This document shows, one piece after another, positions 13,867 to 64,000 of a DNA stretch of 64,000 nucleotides; the stretch's first letter is position 1; every line of letters starts with the position of its first letter. This DNA comes from Branchiostoma floridae. Taxonomy: Eukaryota > Chordata > Leptocardii > Amphioxiformes > Branchiostomatidae. The translations under genes were made by a program, and so were the position numbers. The notes beneath the pieces were generated by a model, which saw only the letters and a program-made list of their open reading frames with translations, was not told the origin of the DNA and did no database searches. The DNA lies in assembly GCF_000003815.2 (NCBI RefSeq), contig NC_049986.1, forward strand, positions 938,864 through 1,002,863, read 5' to 3'.

Positions 13867-15403
13867 GTTCGGACTCTGACTCCGAAAAAGTGGTCCACAC
13901 TATAATATAACGTATAGAAATATACTATACTGTCTAGTCACCAACACACAAGCCTTCACCTGAATAGTACCAGTAGCCTTTACAATACACACAATGAAGC
14001 ATTAAATGAACGATTAGATGGCTATAGACGTTACGAGCACAGAAAAAACGAGTGACCTGACAGTTATAACGTAACAATTGTTAAATGTGATATACTGGAC
14101 CAGACAACACGGTCAGTCCCTGCCGGTATTCTACTGCGTTTTGGGTTAGTCCATTATCTCATGGGGTGTTACGAATGAAGAATAAAACTAGATTTTCAAA
14201 CTTTTATGACTACTTTTACTATTTAAGCCGCCACTGCAAACTTTGACTTGAATTTTCACTCTGTATCTTCATCAAGAAAAGAGACTCTTAGGAAAATGTT
14301 CTTCGGTGGCTTTCTTAGAAAGGAAAATGGTATCTTCCAATGACTTTTGACAAAGAAAAAAGCGACATACTGCTCTTGTCACCACGCCCAAGGGACCTTA
14401 GGTCGCGTGCCGAGATATCAAAAGAAATCATTAATAATTTAAAGCCCTGCATCAATGGCGTATTGAATTCAATATCCAATATCTACATCTAATTTTCACC
14501 ACAAAAGCACGAGGAATACTTAAACAAAGACCAAAGCCTACCAGAACACAGCCAAAACAAAAAACGAAGACTGGCTGAAAGACACAGATATTTTGTGTTT
14601 TTCTCGTAGATAAGGAAGAGAAGTTACGAAAGTGAAGATGATTGGATGCTGAATGATTTATGAAGGTCTCGGCATGAAAAGGCGGGTTAGATACAATGGG
14701 AAGGGACGGGGGAAAGGGCAAGCTGAAATAACATGGCGTGGAAAAATGTCACGAGGCAGAGGGCGAAACTAAGGCGGCTTCATAATACTTACCATTCATG
14801 ATTTCAAATACTAAAAGTCGTTGCAAGCATAAGTATACTATAGTTTACAACTATGAAACCAACAACGTGATGACCAACACATTCCTAGTTTATTTACTGG
14901 AAAAAATATATCAAAGGAGACTTTTGGTCTTAACCCTAAATGTAGTCGTTTTGCCTTAAAACGGAGTACGTAATTAATAATTTCTTAAAAGACCGAGCAA
15001 TTCAGGTCCCGCAAAGGCCTTCACCCTCTAAAATTGGCCTCAGAGGAACTCGTTGCTCTCTACACTTTTCACAAAAGTGTTCTTGTTATCCAGTTAATGA
15101 TATAGTACAGCAAAAGTATAGTGTTTTGGGTACCAACAAGACACAAACAGTCGTCTCCAAGACAGCCCGTTATGTGTAGGGGAATTATACTTGTGCAAAC
15201 ATTCCTTCGCTGAAGCACCAAGGCAGGAACATGTCACTATAAAAACTACTAATATGTTACCGGTACCACTACCTAGTCAATGATGTCATTATGCTTATCA
15301 AGGACGTTATATAACCTCCTTGTGCTTATTAACACATACATTTAGATGGAAAGAAGTCAATGGAGGGGAAAACTTACAGTGTAAACTTTAACGCATTTAT
15401 AGA

Positions 15404-19780: not shown

Positions 19781-22722
19781 CTATGTGTTACTCTTTGCTG
19801 TCCACTGAGTCAGCAGCTCCTTGATTTGTTTGCTGTCTGTGCTGTCCAGGGGAAGGCTGCCCTCGCTGTCAGGTATGGAGGGGTCAGCACTGCTGTCCAA
19901 CAGCAGCTGTACAATACTGAGGAACTCACAAGTAGCAGCTGAGGGGGATGGAGTGGATAAAACAACAACTGGGTAAATGTTGTAGCTGCATTCAAAATAG
20001 GAAGCCTTCACAGTTTAAAGTAAAATGTTAGATTGTTAAATATCTCATAAGACATGTCTAGTTCCTATTTTGTTACTACATCACAGCAAGACACAATTCA
20101 GATCAGGTGATGATGACCAATGCTTAGAATTTTAATACCTTTCGACTGAAAAAAAACACATTCACATATGCAGACTTACCATAATGCAAAGGTGTTTGTC
20201 CATCTTCGTCCTGAGTTTATATTGGAAGGGGAAAAAAAAACAACAAGATTTGTGTCATGACAGTGGATAGAGACAAAGTTGTAACCAATGAAATATATGG
20301 ACACACACGCAACATTACTGTTTTGTATACTTGAGTCAGTTGCTAGAAGATGTACCTGGATATTGATGTTTGCTTTGTGTTGTAGTAATTCTCTGACTAC
20401 ATCCTCATGTCCTCTGTCACATGCCCAGTGTAGAAGAGACAGGCCCTGGAGAAGCAACAAAAAACATAACATTTCATTTAGAAGAGTTGCATGTGACTTA
20501 TAAACATCCCTGTTATAAATTCATGCATCAAATACATGAATCTCAATCTATGATACTTACCTCTGTGTCCTGTTGGTTGATATCTACATCCCCATTGGAC
20601 AGCAGCCTTGCCATTTGCTTTGCGTTTCCTTCTTTACACCAATCAAACACAGTCTTGTTTTTGTCACTGAAATGATATAGATATTAAAAGTTTTCATACA
20701 GCTTGAGGCATCTATTGATAGGACAAGAGTTCAGTTGTTCATCGTTGCGGCAACAAGAGGTAATGATCTGAACTTTTGACAAATTCTTGTGACTTTGACT
20801 TTCAATGTTACATTGTACTTGTAATATGCACTTCTACACAGGGCTCTAGCCAGCGTCCGTTTTTCCGTCAATTGACAGAAATTTGCTGCGTGTTAAGGAA
20901 AAATTTTAAAACCAATCTGTCAACTTTGACGGACAAAATCCTTGGTGGATTAGCTACAGGCGGCTTGGGGACGCCGTCCACGGCCGTAAAAGCAACACTG
21001 TTTGTTTTGCTATTGTTATTATTGTTGACGAAGCGTGTCAGTGGCCTTTCGCATACAATAATCTCATTAAAAACCTGTTTTTCAAGGTCTTAGTTCAGTC
21101 TTTCTAACTCCTGGAATAGTGTTTTCGCGACAATGGGAATTGGCTGACGGAAAAAAATTTCGAGCTGGCTAGAGCCCTGCTTCTACACAAGACCTTAGAA
21201 TGGCCAAACATTGTGAATGTAAGTACAGTAATATTTCTGTTCATTTGTCGTTAATCAGCAAAAGATTTGTACATTTACCTGATATATTCTTCTTCAAATG
21301 ACATTGTACTAACTACTGGGCCCATGAATGAAGTCTTCTTGGAGTCTCCCTAAAAACAGAAATGAATAAAAGACATTACAAAATTCTGTATTACACAGAT
21401 CTGTGTCTAGCACTCAATGTATTATGGAAAGAAGATCGACAAAACCTATTCTCCTTTAATCAATCAAGTGACTAAATATGTACAAAAACTCAAAGACTTA
21501 GAGATATGACCTGAAGCCATCTTTCATGAAAAGAGAGCTGAGAAGGGCAGCAGAAATACATGTTTTGCAAAAAATATTAGTATAATTTACTATAAAACTA
21601 CAAGAAATATTACAGTAACTGTTACACTGTTTTGTTAATGACCACATAATCTTGCTAAGCAAATTGTTTTGGTACTGTTTGATTCTGTAAACATGGAAGA
21701 ACTGACTCCTTCTCTGGGTTCCCATGTGGGGTCTGCTTTCCTCACACCATCCACATACTCTGTCATAGCCTGGTCCTGAGCCATGCCACCTAGACTGTTC
21801 CATGCATCCCTGGACAGAAAAACATATAACACGGTTAATGTCATAATCATCATCATTGGGTATACAAACCTTAGAATTATAGCTACTAAGTCCTTTTTTC
21901 CTCTTTCTCAAATAGGATGTAAGCACTTGGAAGAATTGTAATAGGTGTGGATACCTGGCATTAAGGAAACAGGCTTTCAATGAGGGATGAACTAGGAGTT
22001 CAATATATTTGCCTTAAGAAGCACTAATAAGTCTATACTGTGTATTATATAATAATTTGTAGGCAATTTGAATGGTGGGTACTTTTGTAGTAGTAGTAGT
22101 ACATGTAACTTAACGTTAAATATCACTATGTGACTTACCATTTCTGTTTTCCTTGGAAATCAAAGAAGCCTGGTTTGGCAGTGTTACATCTTCCGACATT
22201 AACCTATAAGAGAGAAACGAAAACAAGATATGTTACACTGGTGCTATTAAAGCCCTGTCTTCAGTCAAGTCAAGTCAAGTCATTCTACAGTTCTTTCCCA
22301 CGTAGCTCAGTTATTATAACATACAACTTATTACAAGATAGCAAGATTTTCACACTCAGATATTTTAATGCCTTTAGAATCTAAGGACCAATTGGTACTA
22401 ACATTCCTTATAACAGATCAACATTGCCATAGATCAGGTAAGGTTAGTCTATACAACGTCTGTGCTATAAGATCATAAATCATAATTTATATTAAATCAC
22501 GTCTTTAAAGATTCGAACAACATGCCCCCCTCCCCTTCCACCAACACCATCTCGCGTCATTCTCGTGACCAAACGTCCGAAACATCCCACCTGTTTATAC
22601 CTGGCGTACAGATACAGGAGTTGATCGGCGCTAAGTTGTGGAGCTATGGTGGCTACATGGTCCACAGCCTGCTGAAACACGTCCGACAGAGGAGACGAAC
22701 TGTCGTCTGCACAGGCGGCCAT
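19781..22722 (-). CDS. ACBD6: Acyl-CoA-binding domain-containing protein 6
   Basis: Eight exons join in phase to about 251 residues (human 282): 22591-22722, 22139-22203, 21707-21809, 21279-21349, 20561-20666, 20356-20445, 20180-20210, 19781-19938. I chose the ATG at 22722 (MAACADDSS); an upstream in-frame GTG is not needed. Exons 1-3 form the acyl-CoA-binding domain (VFQQAVDHVATIAPQLSADQ, LLYLYARYKQ, KPGFFDFQGKQKWDAWN, AMTEYVDGVRKADPTWEP). The YARYKQ helix and KxxW are the acyl-CoA site of the family. A linker (FMGPVVSTMSFEEEY) follows, then ankyrin repeats (GLSLLHWACDRGHEDVVREL and the DEDGQTPLHY turn). ACBD6 binds long-chain acyl-CoA and supports lipid acylation and N-myristoylation. The donor after exon 3 (GTCAGT) is the weakest join but keeps the phase. 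Confidence 0.95.
20839..21179. mobile_element. hAT-type MITE with intact 8-bp target duplication
   Basis: Ends are CAGGGCTCTAGCCAGC and GCTGGCTAGAGCCCTG (perfect inverted repeats). The host octamer CTTCTACA occurs immediately on both sides (20831-20838 and 21180-21187). CAGGG ends with an 8-bp duplication are the hAT signature. It lies in the ACBD6 intron between exons 20561-20666 and 21279-21349. Confidence 0.92.
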
Positions 22723-31686: not shown

Positions 31687-34600
31687 CTATAAGGTCAGGA
31701 ACAGAATGATGAGAATGAACATGATGACCAGCAGCACAATGATTGCTGTCCACTGACGCTTGTCTGGGGGAATACAGAGAATGATCAGATAGTTAGATGG
31801 GTATCTATGACACAGTGCAGAAGATATAACGCTACATTACCTTTATCCGCGGAACAACCTTTATCCATTGCTTTTGAAAACTGGATATTTAGGGATATCA
31901 AGTACATGGACAGTGGTTTCAAATTGCAACATTTTTAAGATATATATAACCACCGTCTGTCGTCTTAATATCATTAAACACCGCTTTCAAAAGCAACGGA
32001 TATAGGTTACCCCGCGAATAAAGGCGTTACATTGTAGTTTAAAAAAAATCAAATATTCCATACTACATAGCCTAGCTCACTTTTCATACTCTTAAAATGA
32101 GCACATTCAGTGACCTTTCTGAATATTCAATGACCTTGGATTTGGTCTTATACATGCATTAATATATCAAATCTACTGAAACACAGTTGCTCATACTTTT
32201 CAAAAATGGTCAACTTCAAGTCTTGTAAAATTATTTTCACAATGTCTGTGATACAACACGAACTCCTTCCTAATACTTCATTAGACTTGCACTGGGCATA
32301 ATGCCAAACATGCATTGCAAATAATCTCTTTAGAGCCTTACTAATTGGGAATCTGTGGTCCTAATTATACTGAACCCAAGTCAAACTGTCTATCCATGCA
32401 AGAAAACAAGAGCAGGGTTCTCCCCAGAGAGTGGAATAAGGGAGGCCCTCCACTATACTCTCAGCCAGCTCCACTATACTATTTTTCAAATTTAGTGTGT
32501 TTCTTCCCTATTTTCTTTGTTAGTTTTGCTAAGATTAATGACAATTCACAGATTTTTGTACCAACTACCAAGTGGCATCACTTTTCCAGTCAGCATTGTC
32601 TGCAAAAACTTGTGAATGAGCAATGATCAAAACAATAGTAGTTTTGCCACTTCACAACAAAGGAATAACAACAGTATATTATACTTGTAGTATTTGACAC
32701 CCTCTGTCATTGCAAAATGAACCCATTTTCATGAAAGTGCAGCGCGTTGGTGCGGGTTATTTTTGCCAGCCCCTCCACTATACTAAAAAATTCTGGGGAG
32801 AACCCTGAAGAGGATAATATTACACAGAGTACTAAGTGGCCACCTACCATTGGACATGTGTGAGACTTTGGCAATTTTTTTGAGAACGCCGTCCAGTCTG
32901 GACTGAGTAGAGTCAATCTCGTGTCCCAAGTCATCTAACATCCTGGGGGGAAATGGGAACAAAGTATTGTTACAGATAGTATTTGAAGGTACAGAATATT
33001 TCATTCTACATATGTGTGCATTAAAGGAGAAATGCTCATTATGTACTGTAAATGCAGAAATGTTCGCGGTGGATTAATGTTTAATTTTTCAATTTTCTAT
33101 TGTGGTATTAGACTGCAGTCTATTGTGTTGCCGCGAACTTAAATCCACCGCGAAAAGTCCTTTTTCCCGCTACCGCGTAATTAAATCCCCGCGAACTTAA
33201 ATGCATTTACAGTATCTGTATCTATATAACTGCCCTTTGGCATAACACACCAGCTTCGCAGGCACGCGGCGCATTAGCAGCTGGTTATATTACACTGAAC
33301 GACCTGTACTTCACACCTAACTTTTGCACATCTATCTGCAAGCGTTCTTTAAAACTATTCACCGAAGACTGTGTTTGGTGATAACAAATTCCACTCTACT
33401 ATAGTGCTGGGAAAATACAAATTTTTGAACCCACCAATCCTAGGATGGTAACTCTGGTACTTGAAGGCACAACTTTTCCTTGTTCTTTTTTGAGCTGATA
33501 TTTGATACTTATCAGTCAGTACGTCCACCATTATATCTAAGACTCAATGAAGAGAACAGATCCCATCACTAAAATTAAGAACAAAACATTGAGAAGCAAA
33601 CTTACACAGCCTGTTCATCCAGCTCATTGCCTATCTGATGAGACATGTTCTTCAGTACTCCTACACTGCCTGATACCATCTCCAACTGGTCATCCTGGGA
33701 CTCCACTATTAACTACATAAACAAGCAAAAAAACATAAAAATCTCTTTTATATACACTGTCAAAATTTTATCTATCATATTTCAGTAATACATAATAAAC
33801 CATTTTCATGTAAAACAAGGAGACATCTTTACATCTTCTAGTACTTGGTTAGAAATTAATTTTTCTTATAATATAAGGCCACACCAATTTAATTTCTTGG
33901 TTCACGAATTTTTTCATAAAAAATATGGAGCGAGAGGGCGAAATAAAAATAAAAATAAAAATTGTAAAATGGTTGGGGTTAAGGTAACGGCTAATCCAAA
34001 ACATAAAGAAAAAAAGTTTTCAGCTTGAAAAAAAGTACAAAAACACTATTTTTGTACAGTAACAGCACCTGTACCCACACTTTAAGGAGCTTATAATATA
34101 AAGGCCAATTTGCTACACCAGAAAGTTGGTGAATGGTTTCATTAATGGTGAAAATTTGCTGAGTGGTAATTTTTATTTTTATTTTTTTCCCAAAAAATAG
34201 GAGCGAGCGAATTCGTGAACCAAGAAATTAAATCGGTGTGGCCTAAAGGTACAGTAAAACACAAACTCATTATTAAGAAATTTTCTTGATACCGTAGGGT
34301 TGAAGATATGGTAAACTGTTTCATATGTTTTGTACGGAACATACAGAAGACATGTAGAGTGTGCCTGCTTACCTGTTGTTGTTGTCTTGTGTCAGCTATA
34401 AATTTCTGGTTGGTGTTGTCCATCTCTGAGTCCAGTTTTGTGTAGCGGTCCTGCCGTTTACTGGGACCGTTGAAGAGGTGCTGTGGGAGGATCAGTTATC
34501 AATTAGTGATGTGACAATGACTGCTTAGGCCACACCAATTTAATTTCTTGGTTCACGGATTTTTTCATAAAAAATATGGAGCGAGAGGGCGAAATAAAAA

Positions 34601-37600
34601 TAAAAATTGTAAAATGGTGGGGTAAAGGTAACGGCTTATCCAAAACATAAAGAAAAAAAGTTTTCAGCTTGAAAAAAGTACAAAAACACTATTTTTGTAC
34701 AGTAACAGCACCTGTACCCACACTTTAAGGAGCTTATAATATAAAGGCCAATTTGCTACACCAGAAAGTTGGTGAATGGTTTCATTAATGGTGAAAATTT
34801 GCTGAGTGGTAATTTTTATTTTTATTTTTTTCCCAAAAAATAGGAGCGAGCGAATTCGTGAACCAAGAAATTAAATTGGTGTGGCCTTAAGAAATCAAAA
34901 TCTCTAAGGTGCATGTCTAACCCTGATTATGAAACTGTTAGTGTTACATATGCACAGGAGCGAGTGTGTACACATGCAGGCATGCATACACACACGCACG
35001 CACGAACACAAATTGCTATAACATACAGTATTGTCATAAATAAAATACACCAGCACAGTTTTCTAACTTTTTCTCAAAGGATCTTAATCTTTAAAGTTTT
35101 GGAAGGAAAGAAGGAAAACCCAAGAACAGCAAAAGAGTCTATGTTTAAAGAGAACCCATGGCCCAGAAATATCTCTACCGATACTGCTGAAACAAAAGCA
35201 CAGCTAGTACAAAAGCATTAACCTCGGAATGCTGTTATGACAACAACAAAAAATAACTACAATTTGTACAAAATCATGAGGCTTTGAAAAAGTGTGTGGA
35301 GATATAATAATGATATTTCGTTGTTTTTTTGCTATGCAAACCACCGTAATTTTTAAGAAACAAACAGCATGAGAAAGACCAAGTCCCAAAAATTGTTAGT
35401 TAATCTGGTTAGTTCTCATCACACCAGAGGGACAGAGATTTTCTCCCAGCACCACCTATAAAACCCAGGTGCACCATGGGATACCTCTCTTTCCCTGCTC
35501 CTGTCTTCTTTAACCGGTTTATTGTCTTTGGGTGACGTGTTAACGTGCAGCAGCTTTGTTTTCATCTGATTCTGAGTGTCCTGGAGGGGAGGTGCATTTT
35601 TCACAGTCATGAGAACTTTGTTAGAACTACACTACATGGGCAGAACTTCTTGAACGTGAAAGCTATCATATTTCCCAAAGAATTTGCTGTTTTGAATTCT
35701 ACATGTTTTACAGTGAGAAATACACGATGCACCTGTTAAAGAGGATGTCACATTTTCACCATAAACTTACATATTGCTATGTATACAGTGCATCGTCAAT
35801 ACCTTAAACGGAATTTCATATCTGTGACTCAAAATACTGTTTGAACCTGTATCTGTATATCCAGAGAAAGTTCTTGCATTGAATACGTTTGCTGACAGCT
35901 TTCACATATCAAAGAGTTCTACCAAACACACACACACACACATGACACTACAGTAGCCTAGGTGTACCTGTCTATTTCTGCCCTCTATTCTGGCTTTGGC
36001 ACTTGGACTTGCCATGTGATCCTTCATTTCCTATGGAGGTGATAACAGGATGATAACATGTAGTTGTAATGCTAGTGAGTAATCTTTTACACAGTCCACC
36101 AGGTCAGGCTTTTAGCTAGGATTTTATAATAGGGAGTCCAAACTTATTGGTGAGTCGCGGTAAGTGACTATTGTAGGGGGGTCTGGGGGCATCCACCTTC
36201 CATGGTGCAGAGTTTTTGATGATTTTAAATTAAAACAGTGCATTCTAAGGTATTCAAAGAGGCAAAAATACTGTTCCAGAGGTCACAGTCTTCACAAATG
36301 ACCTGGTAGCATCCCTAGTCAATCAGAATTTCATGCTTGTCAGAGGATTTTCTCCCCAGTATAGGGCGTCCAGGGGCATCAAATTTCTTGTTATTCTAAG
36401 AAAAGTGCGTCCAGATGACGCGTTGACGCATGCCTGGCTAAAAGCCTGGTTGTAATGCTAGTGAGTAATCTTTTACACAGTCCACCAGGTATAACGTTGA
36501 TTTTGTGACACTGTGCAAGTACTAGTATCTATTGACATCTCACAATCCTATATATATTCATGATATAAAGAGTAAAATATTCAAGTTTATGTACTACACG
36601 CTGTTTCAATTGAAGACATCTTTACTATTGGTAAATATCAAAGTAACAATGAAGTCATTTTAAGAAAATACTCTTTTCTAACTTTCTTGACTATAAGTGT
36701 AACTGTTCAAGATTTACACATACAAGAATGGAAAAATGCGGTGAAAAATGCCATCAAATGCAATTCCAACCTATCATAGTACATGGTACTAAAGAAAATA
36801 TCTGCATCATGTGTGAAGTGTTGCAGTCATTTCACCTTGACACTTTGCCGTGTCCTTGAGATAAAGGCCCGTCTGTCGGCTAGTTCCTGCTGGTCGATCT
36901 TGAACTTCCTTGGGTTGGACTCTACAATACTTGAGAACAGAGTTAAGGTCCTTTTGCTACTTATATATTAATGTCCCGAAAATAGTTTCATCAGGTTGGT
37001 AGAATATAGGATAAAGGAGAAATTCTTTGTACACAACCAGTGGGTACTTACATAGCTTACGTTTCGATGTCTCTCAGACACCTTCGTCAACCCCAGTGAT
37101 GAACCGGGACGAGGGGGGATACAAACTAAGCCACGTTTGGGATTGTTTTCTCACCGCAAAAGCGCCATCTACTTCGGATCCATCTGGTGCTGCAGGAGCA
37201 GAGCACCAGTTATCCTCTCTGACACCCATTGTCAAGCATACCTCGAAACTTCAGCTATGGACACACCCAGAGGGTCTTGACATAGGGCTTCTCCTATGTC
37301 CTATACTGTGCTCTCCAATTGTATATATTGACGGNNNNNNNNNNNNNNNNNNNNNNNNNNNNNNNNNNNNNNNNNNNNNNNNNNNNNNNNNNNNNNNNNN
37401 NNNNNNNNNNNNNNNNNNNNNNNNNNNNNNNNNNNNNNCTCCTTTATCCTATATTAATGTTGTTCACAATACACTTATACAGCATCTAGAAATGAATGTA
37501 GAATTTCCGACTCTGTATTATACCAAAGAGGACATGCGTCAATGAAGGTCAGGCATCCAGGTAATAAGATACGCCAAAAGCAATCAATCAAGCAATTGGA

Positions 37601-40600
37601 TATGATTTTGGAAACAGTCAGACGTACAGAAACCCTGTACAGAATCTGCAACACCACACCTCTCTCCGCAAAAGCCGAGCAATCAAGGTGGTCTACGTTT
37701 GAACACATCCTCAGGATGCCACAAGACACACCTGCACAGAAAGCCCTTGAATTCGCCATTCTAGGTTCTAATAGATTCAAGGCACGCAAGGGAAGACACT
37801 GTCAATTTGCTCAGCCTGCTGAAGGCGGACCTAAAGCACAGGGGCTGAACCCTTCCTACAACGGCAAAGAAACTCCTGGAGCTAAGGAAGCTTGCAGGAT
37901 GCAAAGCGCAGTGGAAAAGGATGAAGAAAGACTGAATGCAGCTACAGGACTTTTCTAAGGCTGTAGATGCAGAATGCAGTGAATGATGATGATGAGACGT
38001 TTCAGACAGTCATTCAGTTGCTTGAGTAATTGCTTTTTTGGTGCAAAGAGGACATGATATAAAAAACAAGAAAATGAAGCAATGTATTCAGGACTTTCCT
38101 ATATCTGCACCAATGACACTTATTTCAGTGTGTTCAGTAAATTTTTTTTTTCTGATAGCAAACATTTTAATAATAGTTTGATGTACAATTTTGTTTTTAT
38201 GTTCACAGACACAAATACCTACAGAAAGAATATTATCTGTTAGAAGTTCCTGATGTGCAAAACCTCAGTCATAGATGACATTCAACTCTGTACCAGTAGA
38301 AACATTGGTTGATAAGAAGATACCTCCAGCTAAAACCATTATGACCACCTTATTGCTCACACAAAGCAGGGTTCTCCCCAGAATATTTTAGTATAGTGGA
38401 GGGGCTGGCAAAAAATAAGCCGAACCAATGCGCTGCGCTTTCATGAAAATGGGTTCATTTTGCATGACAGAGGGTGTCAAATGCTACAAGTATAATATAC
38501 TATAGTGATTCCTTTGTTGTGAAGTGGCAAAATGACTATTTTTTTGATCATTGCCAATTCACAAGTTTTTGTAGACAATGCTGACTGGAAAAGTGATGCC
38601 ACTTGGCACAAAAATCTGTGAATTTTTATTAATTTTAGCGAAACTAACCAAGAAAATAGGGAAGAAACACACTAAATTTCAAAAGGAGTATAGTGGAGCT
38701 GGGCTAGGAATATAGTGGAGGACCTCCGTTATTCCATCCTCTGGGGAGGACTCTGAGAAACATTGGTTGATAAGAAGATACCTAAAGCTAAAACCATTAT
38801 CACCACCAAGATCACAACCACCTTATTGCTCCCACAAAGGATATTTATTGTCTCATCCAGATCCTCCAGGTCCCATTCGATACTGCGCAGGCTGTTCCGC
38901 AGCTCGTTACTCGTCCAATCGTATTCCTCCTTACTGACGGAGACGGGATCCTCCAACAGCTCGCACCAGCGCTGGTACAGTCCTGTGGCATTCTGGACCG
39001 CCTTCTGGACTTCACTGGTGGGGACAAAAGTGATAAAATTAGTGATGAAATTAGTTTGATTATGTAAAAAAAATTGCCCAGTGCTGGAGTACAGCTCACC
39101 GGTGTGGGGAGGTCTACCACGCGGTCTGTCGGACGAGCTGGAGAAAGTCCAGAGGACCTGTTGTAGGATTATTGGTATACCCTACGATCAGTTACCAACC
39201 CTGGAGTCCCGGAGGCGGGATGCGACTGCACGTGAACTGAGAAGGGTGGTGGCTGACGCCACTCATCCTTGCCAGGATTTTCTGCAGCAGGCTACAGAGT
39301 GTCAGTACCAGCTACGATGGGCTCCCCGTTTTAAGCTGCCAATGAGCCGGTCCAACAGACATTCGCAATCGTTTATCCCCAGGGCCGTTGCTCTGTTGAG
39401 TGACAATTAACGCACTATCATATCCGTATGACGTGTACTGAACTCATCGTTACAAATATTGTATAGTAAACGTCTGTAATGTGTGATTTTAAGCAAAATT
39501 ATCAGTCAGTGTAAAGTATGCTTTTAAAATTGTATTAACTTTTGAGACAATGTTTAACAACGAAGCTTGTAAGCACCAACACAATTCAGGCTAAATCGCC
39601 TGCAAAGTGGTGATTTTAATAAAGTTCAAAGTTCAAAGAAAATTAAAGGAATGCAAGTGCCTGCAAAACGGTCACAACGGGGCTAATCATACTAGTTTAA
39701 TGTCAATGGCTTCTACTTCTACTTTGTCAAACTTTAGTCTCTACCAGACTGACTACGCAGTCTGTTATAGGGAGAATGATTTATCAGAGGCAGGGTTGGA
39801 CAAGTTTTCTAAAATTCACTTGCAAGTACATAAAAAAAATTACTTGCCCGAAGCAACTTTTAATCACTTGCCCAAAATCTAAATGACATTCTTCTATGTA
39901 TTTTCACTTCCATCAATGGAGTTCTGGTGGTATTTTTGTGTAATTTTGTGGTAATTTTCCAGAATTTTTGCCCAAATCTAATTTCTACTATCCTCGTACC
40001 CCTGTACAGCGGTCTGGTGAAGGCTAGTCAAACTCCAAGAAGAACCAGCTGAGCTAAGCAAATTCTGAGAATTTCTGTAGGGATCCTTTTGATTTCAGTA
40101 CAAACAATGGCATTTCCCATTGTACTGAATGGACAAACACTGCCAATGGAACAAAACAAGACCTCCTTGGCCACATGCAAATCAGTTTTCAGCAATATTC
40201 TTTGTTTACTACAATGGGCACTTTGACAATTCTTCTACTAGTAGGTCTGGGAAATGGATTTGCTATATATGAAAGCATTTGCATCAACACCTATGCCAAT
40301 GACTACTACAGTAGAGTGTTATTCTATCCAAGGACGTTACACCAAGGACACATATAATGTCCTTGTATAATGTGATTGTCCTTGTTCTATCCAAAGTTTT
40401 CTATATTTTAATCCAAGGAGCTTTTATCAGTGATCTAATTGTCTTTCCAAAGTTGATGGTGCAATTAGGAAAAATTCATGACATTTCCAGTATACCATTT
40501 ACTTGTTGACATTACCAGAAAAGTAATAGCGCATGTCTTGCGCATGGTTGCTTTTCAAACCTTCTTGGTCATATTCATAGTTCTTGAAAGTTGTCCACAA

Positions 40601-42659
40601 CTCCTGATTAGCCACACAAATGAATAAATAAACACATGGATGGGACTCTGTGAAGTCTGTGATCAATTCTTCACCATTTCACACCCTACTAGTAGCCAAT
40701 CCAACGTCCTATTTGTAAGATACACAAATGATAAATTACACAACTCTATTATTAGTTATAGACTCAAAATCAACAAACCTTAGCTTTATTGAGATAACAT
40801 TAGGAGGGAGGTAATGTGTTATTGGTATAGATACAATTCAATAGATGTAACACAAGGAATATCAATCAATCAACAAGGAATATGATCGTAGTAATATGGT
40901 CTTGATTTCAAAAATTGTCAATATCCATAGATAAATAAAAACATGAAGAAAGTAAGTTTATGTGATATTTATCTGTAGGTTAAAGTAGGGCAGACATTAA
41001 TCATTGACACCCAATTCTAATTTGTAGGCAACACTATACTAAAATATCTATGTCGGTCCATGTGGCCTAAATTATATCTCTTCTTGTGATGATTTATCTG
41101 CCAAAATTTGACTGAATTAACCACTGAACCAGATGCTAAAATGAGAAGCAAAACCATAACTGTTGACACTTACTTAGTATTGTATACATAAAGTGATTTG
41201 GATTGAAAAAAAGTCTGGGATTGGGATTGGCTTATTTGTAAAAACATCTGTCACTAGAGACTGTGACACTGAGTGACATGGTCCAGTTCCGCTTCCTTGT
41301 GCGGATTAGCCAAACAGAAACATCATGTTGGCATTGATAGACTGAAAAGGAAATTTTGCAAGCAGTTGCTGGTAAACAAAAATATATTTATTATATAGAG
41401 AGTGGTATGGCAATAGATATAAGATAATTTATACAGGGACTGTCATGTTTTCTGCATGTAGATTGACTGACTAGGCAGCAGTTTTGGGATGCCCATGCCA
41501 GTAGTGTAATCAATAAGATTATGTCTAATCTAAAAGGCTGCCATGCTCTAATATGTGGACTGCAAGAGTAACGTTAGATATCTTTCAAATCATAACTGGG
41601 CTGATGCAGCATGTCCCAGAAATATGCACACATTTCTTTCTTCTTCCATTCAATAATTGACTCAGTACTGATAAAGGCATGGCGTGGTCTCGGTGTTTGG
41701 GCCGGAGCCAAAACTGACACACAAACAGAGAAATTCCTCCACTGACCTCCCAAAAAAAATCATGACGTCCATACCCCACGCAGATGATATAAATCAAGAC
41801 ACAATACACATCCTTATTGTGTACGTGCGAAGAGCCACAATGGAGAAAACGAGGGCACTCTCCATACCACCAACTCCGCATAACTCCTCATTTACATAAG
41901 ACAAGGATGTAACACACACAGCATCAGTCCCTCTCCATCTTGGAGGAGAAGTCTCAAATCCTCACACACAAACCTCAGTTCCTTCTTCAGAAACCCCAAC
42001 AAGCTTCCCACATCCTCTGCCGTGAGAGCGGGGAGAGTCATCGCTCATCAACATGTATAGGGAACAGCCATATACAGGGGAGAATAGCAGAGGGAGGGCA
42101 GGGTTTCCACCCATGGATATCTTCTGTATTTTTGGGACGGCTGGTATTTTTGGCAGGCAGGAAGGAAACACGTCATAGGCTGGCCAGTCTGAGTGAGTGT
42201 GACTGGCATACCTCAAGTAGTACACCATAAACACTACAAACTTGGACTTGATGCAGACTTAAACTGAATGTAAAGGAACTCTTAGATCCAACAGCATTTG
42301 CCTCTATAGTTTACAAACAGGAACTTTTTCTTGTATCTCAGAAGAATGAGGGTGATAGTATTCGATACTTGACACGTTGTAGTGTGTAGACATAAACAAA
42401 AGAGTGTTGCTTGGCTTTAAATTCTACGAATCTCTGGAGAAATAAAAGACTAAACAAAAAAGTAAGTTGGATCGTAGACATAATTGTGGATACCTATAAC
42501 ATGTATTTATAAAAGTGAAGGAAGCTTGTAAGATATGATTTGCGAAAAGGGAAACAATAAAATTAACGCTTGGCGTCTTTTTGGCACACTGATGCATTTA
42601 AATTTTGCCAGGAAAAATACTCACTCTTTGACGACGAAAAACGGATCTTCTAACGACAT
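31687..42659 (-). CDS. STX6: Syntaxin 6 (Qc-SNARE of the trans-Golgi/endosome)
   Basis: Nine exons join in phase to about 281 residues (human 255): 42625-42659, 38845-39014, 36836-36930, 35968-36030, 35485-35580, 34373-34480, 33606-33712, 32848-32942, 31687-31763. The start [12 protein letters not shown] closely matches vertebrate syntaxin 6. The N-terminal helical domain follows ([52 protein letters not shown]). Then comes the Qc-SNARE motif ([57 protein letters not shown]) with the zero-layer glutamine in LDEQ. A C-terminal membrane anchor ends the protein ([20 protein letters not shown]...). It mediates fusion of endosomal and Golgi vesicles. The middle (exons 4-6) is longer and less conserved. 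Intron 2 is a U12-type candidate. The gene is packed with MITEs and LINE tails, all intronic. Confidence 0.97.
31831..32040. mobile_element. MITE with complementary ends
   Basis: The left arm TACATTACCTTTATCCGCGG and the inner ATCCATTGCTTTTGAAAAC pair with the right arm (GTTTTCAAAAGC-like, then CCCCGCGAATAAAGGCGTTA). Non-coding, in syntaxin 6 intron 8. Ends are approximate. Confidence 0.65.
32413..32807. mobile_element. CAGGGTTCTCCCCAG-family MITE, 5-bp duplication
   Basis: Ends CAGGGTTCTCCCCAG and CTGGGGAGAACCCTG are perfect inverted repeats, flanked by AAGAG on both sides (32408-32412, 32808-32812). The second copy, in opposite orientation, is at 38367-38755. A 5-bp duplication with CAGGG ends fits the hAT5 group (inference). 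It ends about 40 bases 3' of the exon 32848-32942 donor. Confidence 0.88.
33044..33214. mobile_element. MITE with TACTGTAAATGC ends
   Basis: TACTGTAAATGC at the left and GCATTTACAGTA at the right are complementary. Inside, TTCGCGGTGG pairs with CCGCGAA/CCACCGCG blocks. About 171 bp in syntaxin 6 intron 7. TA-type ends suggest Tc1/mariner. Confidence 0.8.
33877..34243 (+). mobile_element. Harbinger-type MITE GGCCACACC, copy A
   Basis: Ends GGCCACACCAATTTAATTTC and GAAATTAAATCGGTGTGGCC are flanked by TAA on both sides (33874-33876 and 34244-34246). The interior is about 90 percent or more identical by eye to copy B. It lies in syntaxin 6 intron 6, upstream of copy B in direct orientation. Confidence 0.93.
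34528..34886 (+). mobile_element. Harbinger-type MITE GGCCACACC, copy B
   Basis: Same ends as copy A, flanked by TTA on both sides (34525-34527 and 34887-34889). It lies in syntaxin 6 intron 5. Copies A and B bracket the 108-base exon 34373-34480. Confidence 0.93.
37003..37455. mobile_element. Penelope-like or foldback element, interrupted by a gap
   Basis: TATAGGATAAAGGAG at the left and CTCCTTTATCCTATA at the right are exact inverted copies. Near the left end 'cttacgtttcgatgtctctcagacaccttcgtcaacc' has the ACGTTTCG...CTTCGTCA pattern of Penelope-like element termini. The centre is lost in the gap at 37335-37438. Family is inferred. Confidence 0.5.
37335..37438. other. Assembly gap (N)
   Basis: Short gap within an inverted-ended element in syntaxin 6 intron 2. 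Confidence 0.99.
37555..38040 (+). mobile_element. LINE C-terminal fragment inside a foldback element
   Basis: The plus-strand reading '[21 protein letters not shown]' matches the GH.LRMP....KALE signature after the RT domain of several non-LTR elements. It ends at a stop at 37956 followed by an ATGATGATG tail. Outside it, CGCCAAAAGCAATCAATCAA and TTGCTTGAGTAATTGCTTTT are arms of another repeat, seen intact at 49913-50103, into which the LINE inserted. Confidence 0.7.
38367..38755. mobile_element. CAGGGTTCTCCCCAG-family MITE, second copy
   Basis: Starts CAGGGTTCTCCCCAGAAT and ends CTCTGGGGAGGACTCTG, inverted relative to the copy at 32413-32807. It separates two direct copies of a 65-80 base host segment (38302-38366 and 38758-38839). 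Confidence 0.88.
39080..39637 (+). mobile_element. CR1-like LINE 3' end
   Basis: The plus-strand reading has '[20 protein letters not shown]', '[12 protein letters not shown]' and '...[13 protein letters not shown]' then stop, the classic C-terminal block of CR1/L2-type reverse transcriptases. The 3' UTR ends in AATAAAGTTCAAAGTTCAAAG (terminal TTCAAAG repeats). It lies antisense in syntaxin 6 intron 1, starting about 65 bases upstream of exon 2. Confidence 0.85.
39791..39930. mobile_element. Partial CAGGG MITE
   Basis: Begins CAGGGTTGGACAAGTTTTCT and matches the first about 140 bases of the element at 58956-59281 (reverse strand), then ends without the second terminus. Confidence 0.75.
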
Positions 42660-42901: not shown

Positions 42902-49813
<6,912 letters not shown>

Positions 49814-53666: not shown

Positions 53667-56600
53667 CTACCAGTCATTACGAGCCAGTAGGGGAAGAACA
53701 CGTAGTACAAGTTTTTCTTTCGTTTCCGCCATCAGGTCATAGACGTCATCCAGGGTTATCGTGTTCACCGCCACCCCGTTGATTTCCAGAATCTCGTCAC
53801 CGAGCCCCAGCAGCCCAGCGAACAGCTTGTCGGGGTATCCGTCGCTCAAGCGCGACACAAAAACGCCTGGAGGGCAAAAATGTATGAAGTATTAAGCACA
53901 TTGTATGAATTTGAATGCCTTGAGGTGCCAGTTCATCATTCAATAAGTGTTTGTGGATATCAAACAAACAGGTTAGAACTAATAGAAGACTATTTCAATA
54001 CACACATCAACACTAATTTATTCCCTAATATCTATTGAGAGCTGCCTTTTGATATGGAAGCTAAAACAATGAAGACTAAAAACAACCAAGCCTAGGAGGG
54101 CAGAATTGATTCATGGTATACATTCTTTTTCTTCAGGATTCAGTGTTTTGAAGGAGCCACACATGTACAGCTGGAAAATGAATTGGCTACGTAGTCTACA
54201 CACTCTAAATGACATTTTGGCAGAACATATGATATGGTGTTTCTTGATCACTATGCGACCTTAGAGATTGGCCGATGTCTGTATACGGTCCTCTAGCCCT
54301 GTTTAGATAAGTACTAGGTAGATTTTCACATGAAAAATTGTTTCCATAACTCTGGTCACAAACCAACAGATGCTGGTAAAAAACATGACCCACTTTTGAC
54401 TGGTAACAATAGTTTCTAGTCCCAAACATGTAACAATATCCTAGAGTCAAGTCTCACCATGATTGTACTTCTCGTTGCCCCGGGCGATGTAGAACCCAAA
54501 CGGCCCGTGAGGAGGCTTGATGAGTTCAATGACCTGGGTGTTGTCAGGCATCATCTTCACCAGGCGACCAATCGTCCTGAAGTGCCCCGGGGAGGAGACT
54601 GAGCTTGTGTCCAGGTCCTGGTCACCCCTGGCACTGCTAGGCCTCTTGGGTGGGCTGGGAAATTTACTGAAAGGTCATGTAAAAAAACAAGCCATTTCAG
54701 TACAAAATTTTCTTACAAATAAGCTGACTTCATAACTCAGTGCACCAAACTTCACTTCACTTCTGTTTAGCCTCTGTAAAATTTGAATTCAGATATTGTA
54801 ACAGTGGGGTTCTAGCGCTGCCAAACTGACCACGCCAACAGCTCTTGAGCTTTTGGTGATGTGGTTAGCACGTTGGATTTGTGATCCGGCTGCCCGGGTT
54901 CGGCGCGGGTTCGAATCCCGGGAGTCGGGGTGTTGTTTCTTTCTGTTCTTACTCGCCCCTCTGAATTTCTACAATATAATAGGTAAAAGAACAAAGAATA
55001 TGTATCATCAAGATAGGAAGTATTACATGTATATAACTGCACAATGTTAATTTGGACAACTTGGCTGCCTGCAATGCCAGCAAAGCGAATTAATAAAATG
55101 CACAATGAAGCGTAGAAACAATTCAGCTCACAGAACAGTGCCACCCACAAGTTTCCTAAACCATGACTCTGAAACAACAATCAACTTTCTTTGCACTAAA
55201 AAGCCCCCTACCCTCCTAACCGTTACAGTGAAATGCTTTGACCTGTATTAACCCCTAACTCCTAACAAATATAGACCCAGTGTGCAATAAATACCTCAAA
55301 AAGTCAAGAGAGGTTGAGAACACAGGCAACAACACCTGGAGTTTGATACGTCCCATTGTTACAAAAATAGCCTAAATTACTATCCCAAGCAGCAGCATTC
55401 CTGCACAACTGTGCTACCAAAAGAATGTCCTACAAACAACATACAGTTCACCTTTCAGACAAAACACCTCAAACACAGCTTTTGATGTAAAGCATTGGCC
55501 ATACAAAGGCTTACAACTGTCAGCTGTCCAAGTATGTACAACGAACAATACATGCATTACGCCACTACAGCAAGTACTAGTGGTAATATTCAGCACGCTA
55601 AAACACCAACGAAATGTCCTTTCATTAACATAATATACAAAGACCTACTAGTACTAGTAGATTTTAATTGAATTGAACTTGCAGCAATTTTCATTTTCTA
55701 TCTTCTGTATTATATGTACTGCCAAAATGTGCACAGAATGGCTAGATACCACTGTAGTAGCCCATTCTGTGAACATTTCCACAATAACCAGTCAGTGTAG
55801 CAATAACTAATGGATGACGGAACACACAGTTTTCACAGCTGAGAACATTGTATACAATACACAACCAGATGGAACAAAGCTATTTCAAAGCTGTCAATCC
55901 CAAAGGTGTACCCACAGATTGAATTACCAGCACAAAGGCTTTGCAGGTAAATCAAAACAAATTGTGTCAGTAGCATTAAGAAAACCATGTCAATCATAAT
56001 AAAGAATACACCCTATACTATGGGATACTTGTCTAGATTTAAACGTTTAAAATGTGTATATTTGCGAGATTGTGTGGCATAATTGGCAGTGATTTGGGCT
56101 CAGGTCCAAAGTTCAAAACCTGCCATATCAGCGATGTTTTGCCCTTGAGAAAGGCACTTAACACGACTTTCCTTACCTCACTCAGTACAAGTGAAAAATC
56201 AGTACCAAGCTTCTGTTTGGGCCGTCCCCCAGATAGGACATTAAATGGAGGTCCAGTGTTAGGGGAGAGTCACACCTCGAGCACGTTTAAGAACCCACCG
56301 CACTTATGGAAAAGAGTAGGGGACCTTCCCGGTGTGACTGGATCAAACCTTACAGTCTGGTCTCCGGGTTGACATCTTGCAAAGGCGATAGTCACCTGTT
56401 ATGAAAATCCTTCCACAAATGTGGTAAAACTGAATAAACAAGACAAATCTTACCTTCCCGAAGAGACGCTGTCACTCTTGGCACTGCTGGGTCGGAGCCT
56501 TCTCCTGTCACTCGTTCTCGCTTTCGTGTCCCGGTGCAAGTCATCTTCCACCATGTACTGACGGGAACGGTCAATGTCCTTCTTTCGCCGGAAGCTCAGA

Positions 56601-59600
56601 TTGGTCAAGGAACGAAGCGACGGAGTCTTCTTCAACGACATTAGGGACGGAGTCTTTTTCAGTTTGGCCTCGGGCTCGGCCGGCGAGTTTGGACGGTCAA
56701 GAGCCTGCATGCTGACCGCTCGCCGCAGGGAGTGAAACTTCTTCTTGGAAGCCTTTCCAAAGGATTGCATTCTGTCGAACAGCGAGGATCGGGAAGAACG
56801 CAGATCTTCATCTGGGAATCCTGTCAGATCCCTAAAAAAGTAGAGAACAAAGTGAATCAAAAGCAGAAAAAACAATAGATATTAAAAAACAGGGCTCGAA
56901 ATACCACCTGCATATGCAGGTTTGTGCAGGTAAAATTGGAGCTGTGCAGTTATTTTTGGTGTCTACCTGCACCTAACCTGCACTGGTCCATATACTGGGT
57001 TTTACACATAAATGTCATATGATGTAGGTGTATGTGGATTCTTATTAGCTTCATTGACTGTTACCACCTATAAAGTATAGAAGAAAAAATAGCAAATGTA
57101 TTTTAGTATGATCCTTACTTCTTAAATTCAGAGTGGTGCAGGTAAAATTTGTCTGGTGCTGGTTATTTTCAGTGTTACCTGCAGGTATTCAGAAAAAAGT
57201 ATTTGGAGCCCTGCTATTAGTAAACACTGTACATTCACCACTTGAACTTACGGATTACAAAATTATGTGCATTGATTTGGGTCTGCTTTCCCACAGAAAG
57301 ATTTTATGCACTGTAAGGTTATGTTTTCATTATATGGATGACATCCGTGCCTGCATCAATTTTTTTCTAAAGAAAAAAAAGTTTTGAATTGTATTGTAAA
57401 ATGAGAAACTGCATGCCACAGATTGCAATCAGATATTGGAAAACGTACATGTTTTGTATGCTAACGTCATAGCTAGAATGTCACTGTCAATTCCACGGTC
57501 AAAGAAGAAGATGTGCAACTATAAAAATGAAAAATCTATTGTTTGGAGGATCCTAGAGGATGTGATCCGTATAATTAAATCATCATGGCCTAACATTTGT
57601 TTACCTTGTGTTCCCTCTCTTCTTCTCCTTAGGTTTAGCAATAGATTCTATCCCAACATCCACCTCTTCCACAACACAGGGGTTACTTGAGGACGATGAC
57701 CCTGCCGACTTTGCTGACTCAGGTCGTTCCGTCCCTCTCCTCTGCTTCCTTGTCTTATCGACAGTGGCATACTCTGGTTCTGATGTCTTCAAGGAATCTG
57801 GTGAGACCCCAACATAACTTGTTCTGAGCAGTTTGTCATCTTGTGCTCTCCCTTCTCTTAAACTTTGTAGTCCTGACGGTTGTCTTGAATTTCTACTATT
57901 TCTACCATTGTTAAGATCAACCGTTCTGTAAGCATCTTCAATACCAATGTTTGGAGGAGAAACTGAAGAACTTCTGTAAGTACCATTGACATCGGGGGAT
58001 TTCCTACGCGGGCGCGGGTCGGATTCTTGATGTCGCTCCATTCCTTTATTGTCTGGCCTTTGATTGGCTGGGCTTTGCTTTGAGGAGGGGTTATATCGGT
58101 CAGTTCTACTGGACTGTCTCGGGGCTCTCCCGTGTGACGACAGACTCCCGTTGGACATTGTGCTGTCAGATTGGCTTGACGAGTGCACCTGAACTTGAAC
58201 ATTTTGATGGCTGTGATTCCTTGGGGAAGGAGAATTCTGATATCTTTCAGGTGGAGAATTGTAACTTGTTGGAGACTGACTATTGTGTTTTCTTGGAGAC
58301 GGTGTATCCTGACGTTCTGAACCTTCGGGGCTACTACCGATGTACGTATCTGGCAATATGAAATTGTCTGTTTGAATGATCTCCTCATGGATCAACGCAC
58401 CGTTCCTTTCCGACCAGGGACTTGGCGAACGGTTGCCATGGGAACCGTTCCGTTTCCTGTTCCTCTTGTTTTCTCTATTCGTGACACGTACGTCCCCCTC
58501 CGTGGCCAGCGCACCCAAAGGTCCCTCCACAACTCCATTCTGAACATCTCCATCAGAACTCACTCCCACATCATCCATGAATCGTACGCGGGCTGTCTCG
58601 CCGTTCCGCTGGCTCTTACGGGAAGTCCTGTGGTTATTTCCAGGCGGATAGTTTTCACGGTCGCTGCCGTGACCAGATTTGCCAAGATGGCCGCTGTTCC
58701 CGTTTTGTAGAATACCATTCTTGGGACGAGCACCCTGTTGTAAGTAGCTATCAATGCCATGTGGACTGGAAAGAGCAAACACGAAACATGTCAATCAAAT
58801 ATTTTATCATAATAATGAGGGAAACTGAAGAATCACGGACAATACAGGTCATACTATGTAAACTATGTAAAGATGGTTCACTTTTTGTTTTGTTGAATAA
58901 GTTTTGAATTATGAAAAAATAAATGATAAGAGAAGTGAAGTCTAAAGCACATACCCAGGGATAAACAAGTCCACTAGCCCTATTGTCCCGGGCAAGTGAA
59001 AGTGATGGTCGGGCAAGTACATGTCCTATCCCACTTGCCCGACGGGCAAGTAAGATTTTTCAATGAGTGAGATTTTTTTTATACTTGCCACTTTTCAGTC
59101 AGGGCATCAAGCATTGGTCAACAAAGAAAAATAGAGCCAATAACAAGAATTCCATCGATGAAAGTAAAAATACATGTCATTTATTAAATTTTGGGCAAGT
59201 GGAAAGTTGGTTCGGGCAAGTAAATTTTCTATGTACTTGCCCGATAGGACAAGTGAATTTTAAAAAACTTGTCCAACCCTGCATACCTGTCTTTGGGACT
59301 GGTTACAACAGGACGGATTGAGTGGTCAGCTTTCAGTGGCGTTGCCTTTGACCGTGCTTGCTGTAGCAGCCGTAGTGCCTCTCTGTGATTGGCTGAGAGT
59401 GGACGCTCTCGAACCCTACGAGCAAACGTAAACAAGACGCTGGTTGTTTTCAAGATCAAGACAACACATTTCACAATTCATTACTGTCTGTAAGTTGTAG
59501 TAAACCAAATCACATGATTTTGTTATAACAACAGGGGCCAGTTCATTTCAGAAATTTACACATTATTCAACATTATTCAACTTTTTTTCAAAATTAAAGA

Positions 59601-62600
59601 TTCACACAAGTCTCTGACCTTGTCCCATGATCTTGCGAGACTAGGTCATTCCTTGATCATGATGTACTGAGCAGATCTCGAAAATATGGAGGTATGTGTT
59701 TTACATGTTTTCACGAGTCATTGATCAAAGAATATTCTATAATAGCACATGAGAGGTTAATAAAGATAAAAACACGCACCTCTGATTGCCTCTGTGCCTT
59801 GTGGACGGATCAGAATCATCTGGTGAGGACGCTGCAGTACTCCTCTGAACTGCTGGGCGGTGTGGACGGGAGATACCGGAGTCTGCATCGCTGTCTGCAG
59901 TGTGATAACCTACGATGGATACAAAAAGATAAACTGTGATGAAATAGTGGTTTTCTGGGGGGTCTCTAAGCTAGGGAATACGGGTGCAGTACTGGTGCTG
60001 CACAAGTGGAGTACAGGTGGTATACAGGTGCTGTATGTGTGCTGTACGGTTGCTATACAGCTGCTGTACAGGTGCTATACAGGTACTGTACCGTAGCCTG
60101 TACGGGCGCTGTACAGGTGCTATATGGTTCCTAAACTTTTAGCATGCACCATCTTACCCTTGGGGACAGATCCAACCATCATTATAAGTGGACATTTTAG
60201 ATTGACCACTGACCTTACCAGGGTACAGGTGGCATGTGCCCTTATCAAATATGACATTCCCAAAGGTATTTCACATTCATGTAGTTTGTATTCCAATAGT
60301 CGTACAAAGGCTCCTGACCTAAGATATAAGACACAGATATACAACTTACAAGTTCACATACATGTATCATCAAATCATGGCATATTGTCTTGTCACTACA
60401 GTAAAGAAGATGACTAGAAATTAACATGAGCAAAAACTCTAAGAATCAAGATATATGATAATACAGCCGCTTACAATATAGGGCATGAAATGTCTTCTAC
60501 CCTAGGTTCTTACCTAAATCCCCATAAGTACATTACTACATGCAGACAACAAAGGATTCTATGTGCTCTATACACACATATTATGCATATAATCCTCTGC
60601 CAAAGCATAACACATTCCCAGGGTTTAACTTTGTCAGATTTGACCCACCACGTAGCGTAAAACTCTTAGTAATACTCAGGCAACAGCAGAAACCACTAGG
60701 TTTGGTCTTCAGCCTCTTTCTTGTAGGCATCCTTTGCTAGAGCAGTCATATACAGCATTAGAAACCATCCAAATAATCCAGTATCCAATTGAAAGATGAA
60801 TATGAAATGGCCTTGACGTGAAAATCTGTCGCACAGCTCTAGTGTATGAGGTTCTACCATCCGGTGGGTAGGCGGTGACGGAAGTTGGTGTTCTCCAAAG
60901 CTGAGTTATTGTGTTTGGAATGTTGTGAAACAGAATCAATACTCCCCACCACTTGACGTGACAGCTGGTAAAACTGTGTGGAGGGTGCCGTTTTGTAGCC
61001 AATGGCAAACTTTCCAAACAAAGTGTAAGTTGGGTCCTACTGTTACATGTGCCAAATGTTTTAGAAACACTTGTTATTGTGTTTTTAGACAGTAGGTAAA
61101 AGTATTGCCTGACTTGGATGTATATATATATATGGATTGTGCAAAATATTTACATGGGCCAAATACATGTACAGTACATTACATTTACAAGACAAACTCT
61201 TAAATGTATGTATCATAGAACCTGAACAGTCAAAACATTCAAAGAAAGTCAAGTTTATCAATTTTCAACATCATAAGAATCATATCATAAACTATGACAT
61301 TGGACAGCGACATTCAAAGTGTACAAATACGACACCACTGCTTGAGTCATCAGCCATTTTGTCAGCCACTGCAGTTTTGATATTTACCAATGCTGGAACA
61401 ATTAAGAATTATAGTACTGTTGCAAATGTCAATCTCAATGGAGATTTTAGATTTAGAATATTTGCAGTTTTGTTGCCAAATTTCTACAAAACATTTAAGT
61501 CATGCTATTACTAGTAGGTACTGTGAGTTGAGAACATTTCAATGGTCCAGGAATATAAATGATTGTTTCCACAGATATGTATCTGATGCCCTCAGGAAGA
61601 CTAAATATAACTTAAGAGCTTCATTACATTGTTTCTAAGCAATGAGAGTATGTACACAATGTGCCCTGACATTAGTCTTTGATTAGATTATCATGCCACA
61701 AGCTTAACAAATATTGTCAATGGGGTCAGCAAATCACCTTCAATCTATAGCATATGGCTTCTTATTTAACAACAAACTTTCCTTACAGCAAACTGTTGTT
61801 GGATAAAACTCTGTATCCTATGTCACACTACAGATACAGTATTTAGGAATTTTAGGTGCATAAATATTGTGGTAAAATGGTATGTCCAAAGGCCAAAGGT
61901 TAACTTTAAGAAATAACACATTCACTGCTAGTGGTACTAAAATAGAACCTCTAAAAACAGTGCTATAAAGGCCTTCTGAAGAATATCTCATCATATAAAG
62001 ATACTCTGAGGTGTGCATACCTTGGGGGTTACTGATGCTGCTTTACCGGTAGATCTCTTTCAATTCACCACTTTTTTAATTTGGTGCTCTTAGCGTACCT
62101 GGCAAATTTATGAGAGCTAACATTCTACTAAATAATAAATGTATGTTAGAAAAGGGGTTTGAATGAGACCTACCTCTGTGATAATGGTACGGTTCCGACC
62201 CATTGGACAGTCCCTCTGACGACTGTTCAGTTGGACCTTGTCCTGACTGTAGAGAGACAGAGTCCATGTCTACTGCACTGTCATGGTGGGAGTCAGGACT
62301 CCTGGTCCGGGCTAGTCTTAGCTGCTGCAAGTCTGCCGCTGGCACCTGTGTCTGTGGCAAGTGATATCCTCTGGCTGGCAAGTCGCTGGAGCTTGCACTC
62401 TGTCTCACACCGTGGGAGGGTCTTTGGTTCGGACTCGGAGTCTGTCTTGGCGAGAGAGAATTTCCTGCAGTTCTCAATTCCGGAGTTGACGTTAGTTCCC
62501 TCCGTTCTGAAAAAGGGTCCGACTCAGATCTTCCTCTACTCGCCATCAGGTTCTCGCGACTTCTGGACAAGCACTTTGGAGGAAACGGTTGCCTGGACAG

Positions 62601-62972: not shown

Positions 62973-64000
62973 CTGAAAAAATACAGTCGTTATTACAAGC
63001 TATCATGCTGAATGCAAGTTTCTATGTATCTATAGCTAACAGACTACAAATTGCAGTCAAAGACTTTTATTTCTAACACTGTCAAGATAGGTAAATTATC
63101 ATTATAAAGAAATTTAACGATTGAACAAAAGTTATATGCTATTCTTCTAGAGTCCAGGTTTCTAAACTACATTTGTAATAGGTGCAAAATATCATCTAGT
63201 TGTTGTACATTATAAAAATGGTTCATTTCTCAAAAATATATTTTTATGATTACCCGGTATTTCAATGATCCTTTGATTAAAGCAGAGCCCTGGTGACTTG
63301 TAATTATGTGTTGCAGAATGACTATACACATGACTACCTATGCATACACCACAGTAAGGACACAGGGTCAACCTAATACTTTACCCAAACAACTGCTCTT
63401 CTGTTACTCTACAAAAAAACGCAGTCAACTGAGCATAAATTTCACACCAATACCGTAGTCTCATGCTAATCAACAAATTTTCCAGACTCTAACAATCCTG
63501 AAAAGCTCTTAGAATCCGAAAAGAATTACTTTGATTCTGTTACAAAGCCTGAAAGACAGCGCACAGGAAGATTTGTAGACAGAAGTCGGTGCTGAGGTCA
63601 GCGAAGTTTGTATAGTCTAACTGTGACGCACATGGGTGGTAATCCTGGCACAATAGAGGGTAAAGTGCCATAGCATGTATGATCCTGTAGACTTGGGATT
63701 AGGGAGAATGTTTGGCCGTGTATTTGTCCAACTTTCTGTGGCAACTCGCAAATACAAAATCACAAAACCAGATTTAAGTAGTCTGTCTTAATTCCTTCAC
63801 CCTATTGGCTAGTCTATTCTAGGCTTTTTTGTTTGCTCGGCTCTACTTTCAAGGACACCAATAATAAATCATTACTGAACCTCCCCCTTATCAAACCCAC
63901 ATACAGGATTGCAAGCTCGAAATATCTGTACTTTGGACAGTGATGCAAGCTTTTTCATAGGCACACCCTGGCTCTCCTGCAGGCTACTGAAATCATTGAC
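62973..64000. other. Intron of the PDZ gene running off the window
   Basis: The exon 62174-62972 begins with an acceptor, so this stretch should be intron. I see no exon in it. Confidence 0.6.

Follow-up and report, generated by a model that had tools for sequence, protein, structure and literature searches.

The gene for syntaxin 6, a protein of membrane traffic, is an established host of a minor (U12-type) intron, the kind excised by the rarer of the cell's two spliceosomes. In published work, the fly gene Syx6 (CG7736) has a U12-type intron with AT-AC ends and its human U12 ortholog in STX6 is of the same subtype (PMC2831892, Table 2), the fish syntaxin-6 intron has switched to GT-AG (PMC2831892), Syx6/STX6 appears again among fly U12-intron genes (PMC2952598), and STX10 is a minor-intron gene (PMC12637451, PMC8767276). 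Among the non-canonical endings of minor introns, AT-AA is reported to be the most frequent in both animals and plants (PMC10639083); a 5′ A is described as able to splice to whichever 3′ base follows, AC being the preferred ending (PMC4176328); and A-type introns, AT-AA included, are reported to be CENATAC-dependent in human cells (PMC8280824). Here we analyze a stretch of 64,000 nucleotides (nt) of the lancelet Branchiostoma floridae (GCF_000003815.2, NC_049986.1, positions 938,864 to 1,002,863; hereafter the window, whose own numbering is used), which carries a syntaxin-6 gene on its minus strand. Judged from sequence and homology, intron 2 of this gene is very probably the ancient syntaxin-6 minor intron of fly and human, now with AT-AA ends.

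The introns of fly Syx6 and human STX6 resemble intron 2 in gene, minor class and A-type donor, a match at the level of the gene, but end in C where the lancelet intron ends in A. The fish intron likewise shares gene and class and has an altered ending, yet fish, in the published account, switched subtype to GT-AG, whereas the lancelet retains the A donor and has only its 3′ base altered. The termini themselves are those of published AT-AA minor introns, which belong to the A-type, AT-AN class. What is new is the AT-AA state at the syntaxin-6 locus, the kind of intron being already known; among the open-licence papers listed (main texts), none was seen to name an AT-AA ending in syntaxin 6 or in a lancelet. 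The initial annotation had presented AT-AA as a rare subtype, and a rare, non-canonical spelling it is; it surprises less in view of its reported place as the commonest such ending (PMC10639083) and of the earlier publication of the syntaxin-6 intron as a minor one (PMC2831892). Most likely, a single substitution of C by A at the final base turned AT-AC into AT-AA, be it in the lineage, the animal or the assembly.

Direct reading of the minus strand between 36700 and 39100 placed the following elements.

36931..38844, minus strand: intron 2, predicted U12-type with AT-AA ends, phase 1, 1914 nt, containing a 104-base N gap (direct read of the strand)
38836..38844, minus strand: putative U12-type 5′ splice site ATATCCTTT, the sole exact copy in the window
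36942..36948, minus strand: putative U12 branch site CCTTAAC, its second A being 36943
36931..36932, minus strand: terminal AA, 12 nt past the branch A, predicted to yield DETI-S-IVE as in mammalian syntaxin 6

The intron coordinates proposed in the initial annotation proved exact on this reading, as did a U12 donor directly after exon 2 and a CCTTAAC with 12 bases to the next exon. Exon 2 ends GAT CTG GAT GAG ACA ATA A (..GAGACAATAA), whereupon intron 2 opens ATATCCTTTGTGGGAGC; its final bases are AAAGGACCTTAACTCTGTTCTCAA, followed by exon 3 GTATTGTAGAGTCC. U12 branch sites follow a consensus of type TTCCTTAAC, the core of which CCTTAAC matches exactly, and 12 bases (36942-36931) lie between the branch A and the first exon base, G 36930. 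This spacing falls inside the published optimum of 11-13 nt from branch to 3′ end for U12 introns, among which AT-AG is disfavoured (PMC3584512). The donor ATATCCTTT, read from 38844 to 38836, is an exact match to the U12-type rule RTATCCTT (PMC2846911). Since window counts are near or below expectation (ATATCCTTT once against 0.83 expected, CCTTAAC five times against 7.85), each motif by itself is ordinary and becomes informative only at the homology-fixed junction. Scoring matrices with approximate weights, the figures of which are thus rough, found scores as high as that of the donor at one of 124,368 positions and as high as that of the branch site at eight of 124,338, or about 0.0008 per 13-position range. 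A pattern search pairing the donor with a branch site close by was uninformative, with 4 matches for the pattern and 5 for its reverse. Exon 2 and intron 2 both end in AA, leaving a junction ambiguity of two bases in which AT-AA, AA-CA and AA-TC placements produce the same messenger RNA (mRNA); among them, by sequence, only AT-AA sets the consensus donor at the first intron base.

The choice of AA as the 3′ end is carried by the protein. An AT-AA join would create the spanning codon A|GT, serine, in a predicted mRNA ..GAGACAATAA|GTATTGTAGAG, and the resulting junction peptide DLDETISIVE occurs unchanged in 4j2c and 1lvf, both syntaxin-6 chains, as had been claimed for vertebrate syntaxin 6; the syntaxin-10 chain 4dnd reads ETIGIVE at the same junction. 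With the donor held at 38844 and all ends 4-44 nt past the branch A tried, only 36931 yields DETI-S-IVE with no residue gained or lost. A conventional AT-AC end is not available: the sole AC in that range sits at 29 nt, in another frame. Nor need an exon be hidden in the gap at 37335-37438, which had been named as a possible refutation, as the alignment of the joined protein with mammalian syntaxin 6 runs through the junction with no residue missing.

In the mechanism that we propose, U11 and then U6atac would pair with the donor, U12 would pair with CCTTAAC while bulging one A, and the U12 machinery would join exon 3 after AA, 12 nt past the branch A, because it can take A followed by whichever base as the end of an intron that starts with A (AT-AN). 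Splicing one base further on, at AG, would lead to a stop after two codons. Predicted parts of this machinery are at hand in the genome. Searches were made of the assembly of 513,431,437 bases in 431 contigs, and for the small nuclear RNAs (snRNAs) and CENATAC only the best candidates were scored; one match above cut-off was found for each of the four minor snRNA genes, U12 (132.1 bits), U11 (94.1 bits), U6atac (133.6 bits) and U4atac (81.1 bits), together with an open frame for CENATAC, the one protein sought (238.2 bits, no stops). For the lancelet's own U12 RNA, CCTTAAC is the top pairing site among the final 100 nt of intron 2, with one A bulged, and the genome's own U11 and U6atac each form a six-base pairing with the donor in the expected place.

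It is tempting to see in the 3′ end, TCAA|G, a built-in switch, with AA giving functional syntaxin 6 and a slip to AG an early stop, such that the minor spliceosome, with CENATAC, sets the amount of syntaxin 6; we regard this as improbable.

As a control for the procedure, we used TMEM231, which we take to be a carrier of a minor intron. In this genome its donor is ACT|ATATCCTTT; a CCTTAAC is present, and the frame is kept by an AT-AC end, ..GGCCTTAC|TTACAAACC, which lies 11 nt past the branch A. Other in-frame ends are present, including an AA at 17 nt, and frame alone is not selective; scored as joined products, the four in-frame joins rank AT-AC (99.3 bits), the CT end (93.5), the TA end (87.7) and the AA end (85.0). 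Because AT-AC comes out on top, the procedure used for syntaxin 6 returns AC where AC is the end, in this one control of three tried. The CENATAC paper (PMC8280824) also names TMEM231, for cryptic splice-site activation, in the legend to a figure.

Several points weigh against an AT-AA minor intron as read here. The upstream T run of the branch site is absent (AGGACCTTAACT), and a short pyrimidine-rich stretch, CTCTGTTCTC, lies between the branch site and exon 3, although U12 introns are described as having no distinct pyrimidine tract there (PMC3584512). Within 100 bases on either side, other 12-base windows give stronger short duplexes with U11 and U6atac, making that pairing test weak. The other two controls were of no help: PROX1 has a GT-AG intron at its domain split and is uninformative, and none of six Band_7 matches could be recognised as PHB2. 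The last intron base is moreover known from one assembly and one copy.

The first alternative keeps the U12 type and gives the intron an AG end, at 36930 (13 nt past the branch A) or at 36922 (21 nt). AT-AG minor introns do exist (PMC8280824, PMC4176328), the nearer AG shares one base with the AA, and the second, which the initial annotation had not listed, is in frame. Yet the join at 36930 gives DETI-I-L-stop (predicted mRNA ..AATAA|TATTGTAG), just the stop two codons on that had been claimed, and hence a truncated protein, its product, cut off early, scoring 60.1 bits in Pfam against 102.2 for AT-AA. The join at 36922 gives DETI-K-SNPRK (predicted mRNA ..AATAA|AGTCC), losing SIV and placing K for a conserved E, and at 91.9 bits it falls 10 bits lower; AT-AG is in any case disfavoured, and 21 nt lies beyond the 11-13 nt optimum (PMC3584512). 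We consider an AG end quite unlikely. The second alternative, that of a sequencing error or a private variant, in which the true end is AT-AC and the last A is wrong or polymorphic, is helped by the single copy in the assembly and by the one substitution that separates AA from the AC of fly and human (PMC2831892). A genome search with the 3′ end of intron 2 returned no second copy or haplotype; the one hit, at 93%, covered just the initial 40 bases of the query, which are intronic (36961-37000). There is, however, no direct sign of error, and AT-AA recurs naturally in published introns (PMC8280824, PMC10639083), so that this alternative too keeps a slim chance. The third and weakest, very unlikely in our view, is that the major spliceosome removes a shifted GT-AG intron, for example from AAG|GTGGTT at 38821 to GTAGAG|TCC at 36920 (NILCGSNK for SIVE), with the U12 motifs as relics or with alternative forms being made, for which speak the pyrimidine-rich stretch upstream of exon 3, two fly U12 introns that are twintrons and carry U2-type sites as a second pair (PMC2831892) and the 61 of 192 GT-AG or GC-AG pairs near the junction that keep the homologous frame with residues lost or added (again absent from the initial annotation), but none of those 61 restores the conserved DETI-S/G-IVE and the example scores 90.1 bits against 101.5 for AT-AA over the same span, which is one residue shorter than that scored above.

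AA is therefore the best-supported end on the predicted products, strongly preferred by homology and not strictly forced, as other in-frame joins exist (AT-AG at 36922; GT-AG at 38821/36920). The initial annotation had held that the frame forces AA; peptide and Pfam do place it first, and the word is too strong given those two joins. Each of them is weaker, since it would interrupt a peptide that mammalian syntaxin 6 has in identical form, at a cost of 10-11 Pfam bits. The broader claim of the initial annotation, of a U12-type intron with an AT-AA end in syntaxin 6, is thus supported by the sequence evidence.

The gene model within which intron 2 stands comprises eight exons, all on the minus strand, that join into 750 bases encoding a predicted syntaxin-6 product of 249 amino acids without internal stops.

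42625..42659, minus strand: exon 1, with GTGAGT directly downstream
38845..39014, minus strand: exon 2, ending ..DLDETI + A (Pfam PF09177)
36836..36930, minus strand: exon 3, starting GT ATT GTA GAG.. (protein homology and joined frame)
35968..36030, minus strand: exon 4 (joined frame)
34373..34480, minus strand: exon 5 (joined frame)
33606..33712, minus strand: exon 6 (joined frame)
32848..32942, minus strand: exon 7, carrying part of the SNARE domain (joined frame and Pfam)
31687..31763, minus strand: exon 8, hydrophobic tail and TAG stop (joined frame and Pfam)

In the product, Pfam gives 122 bits to an STX6/10/61 N-terminal domain (STX6_10_61_N) and 41.4 bits to a SNARE domain, and a hydrophobic tail, judged by eye, is present as the C-terminal anchor. 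Because the N-terminal half scores nearly equally against known chains of the two proteins, at 156.2 and 155.7 bits for syntaxin 6 and at 154.3 bits for syntaxin 10, the two are not separable by score, and the name syntaxin 6 is used here for what appears to be a syntaxin 6/10 gene. Six of the seven introns are GT-AG, the exception being intron 2. A genome search with PF09177 (E up to 1) gave seven matches, the two above cut-off being exons 2 and 3 of this gene, and no second syntaxin-6-like gene.

On another contig (L007 1512-1630, G000:C12) there is a copy of the end of exon 2 and the beginning of intron 2, with the ATATCC of the U12 donor, flanked by imperfect 40-base inverted repeats; its sequence suggests a piece of the gene captured by an element of the foldback type. 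The opening part of intron 2 (38756-38839) is itself repeated about 460 bases downstream in the same intron (38298-38366), in two stretches of 94% and 96% identity, and this repeat starts within the donor region. Around the assembly gap, the flanks (36961-37455) bear an exact 17-base inverted repeat, and 36961-37000 occurs at 93% on another contig; this segment is perhaps a mobile element with its edge about a dozen bases upstream of the branch site. If intron 2 is retained, the frame of exon 2 continues (38732-38844) into a hydrophobic tail and then a stop, which may represent a short membrane-anchored form or chance.

Elsewhere in the window, domain matches mark neighbouring coding pieces of the TsaD family (47582-48519, plus strand; OSGEP-like), an ankyrin repeat (20179-20520, minus strand; ACBD6-like by eye), PDZ (53670-53891, minus strand), NHL repeats (2411-2719, minus strand) and a RING finger (13672-13899, minus strand). 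Four further pieces show either no family or only families among these five, and a domain search of the pieces 57604-58794, 62079-62999 and 19784-20014 gave no matches. Human ACBD6 presumably lies near STX6, and the ACBD6-like piece would fit a conserved gene order.

Finally, with an AT-AA intron in the lancelet, the syntaxin-6 minor intron would show three endings across animals, alongside the published AT-AC of fly and human and the published GT-AG of fish (PMC2831892). For annotation, a gene finder restricted to GT-AG or AT-AC would misplace the exon here. With AA and AG adjacent, 12 and 13 nt past the branch A, syntaxin 6 would be a compact natural system for testing the choice of an intron's last base by the minor spliceosome.

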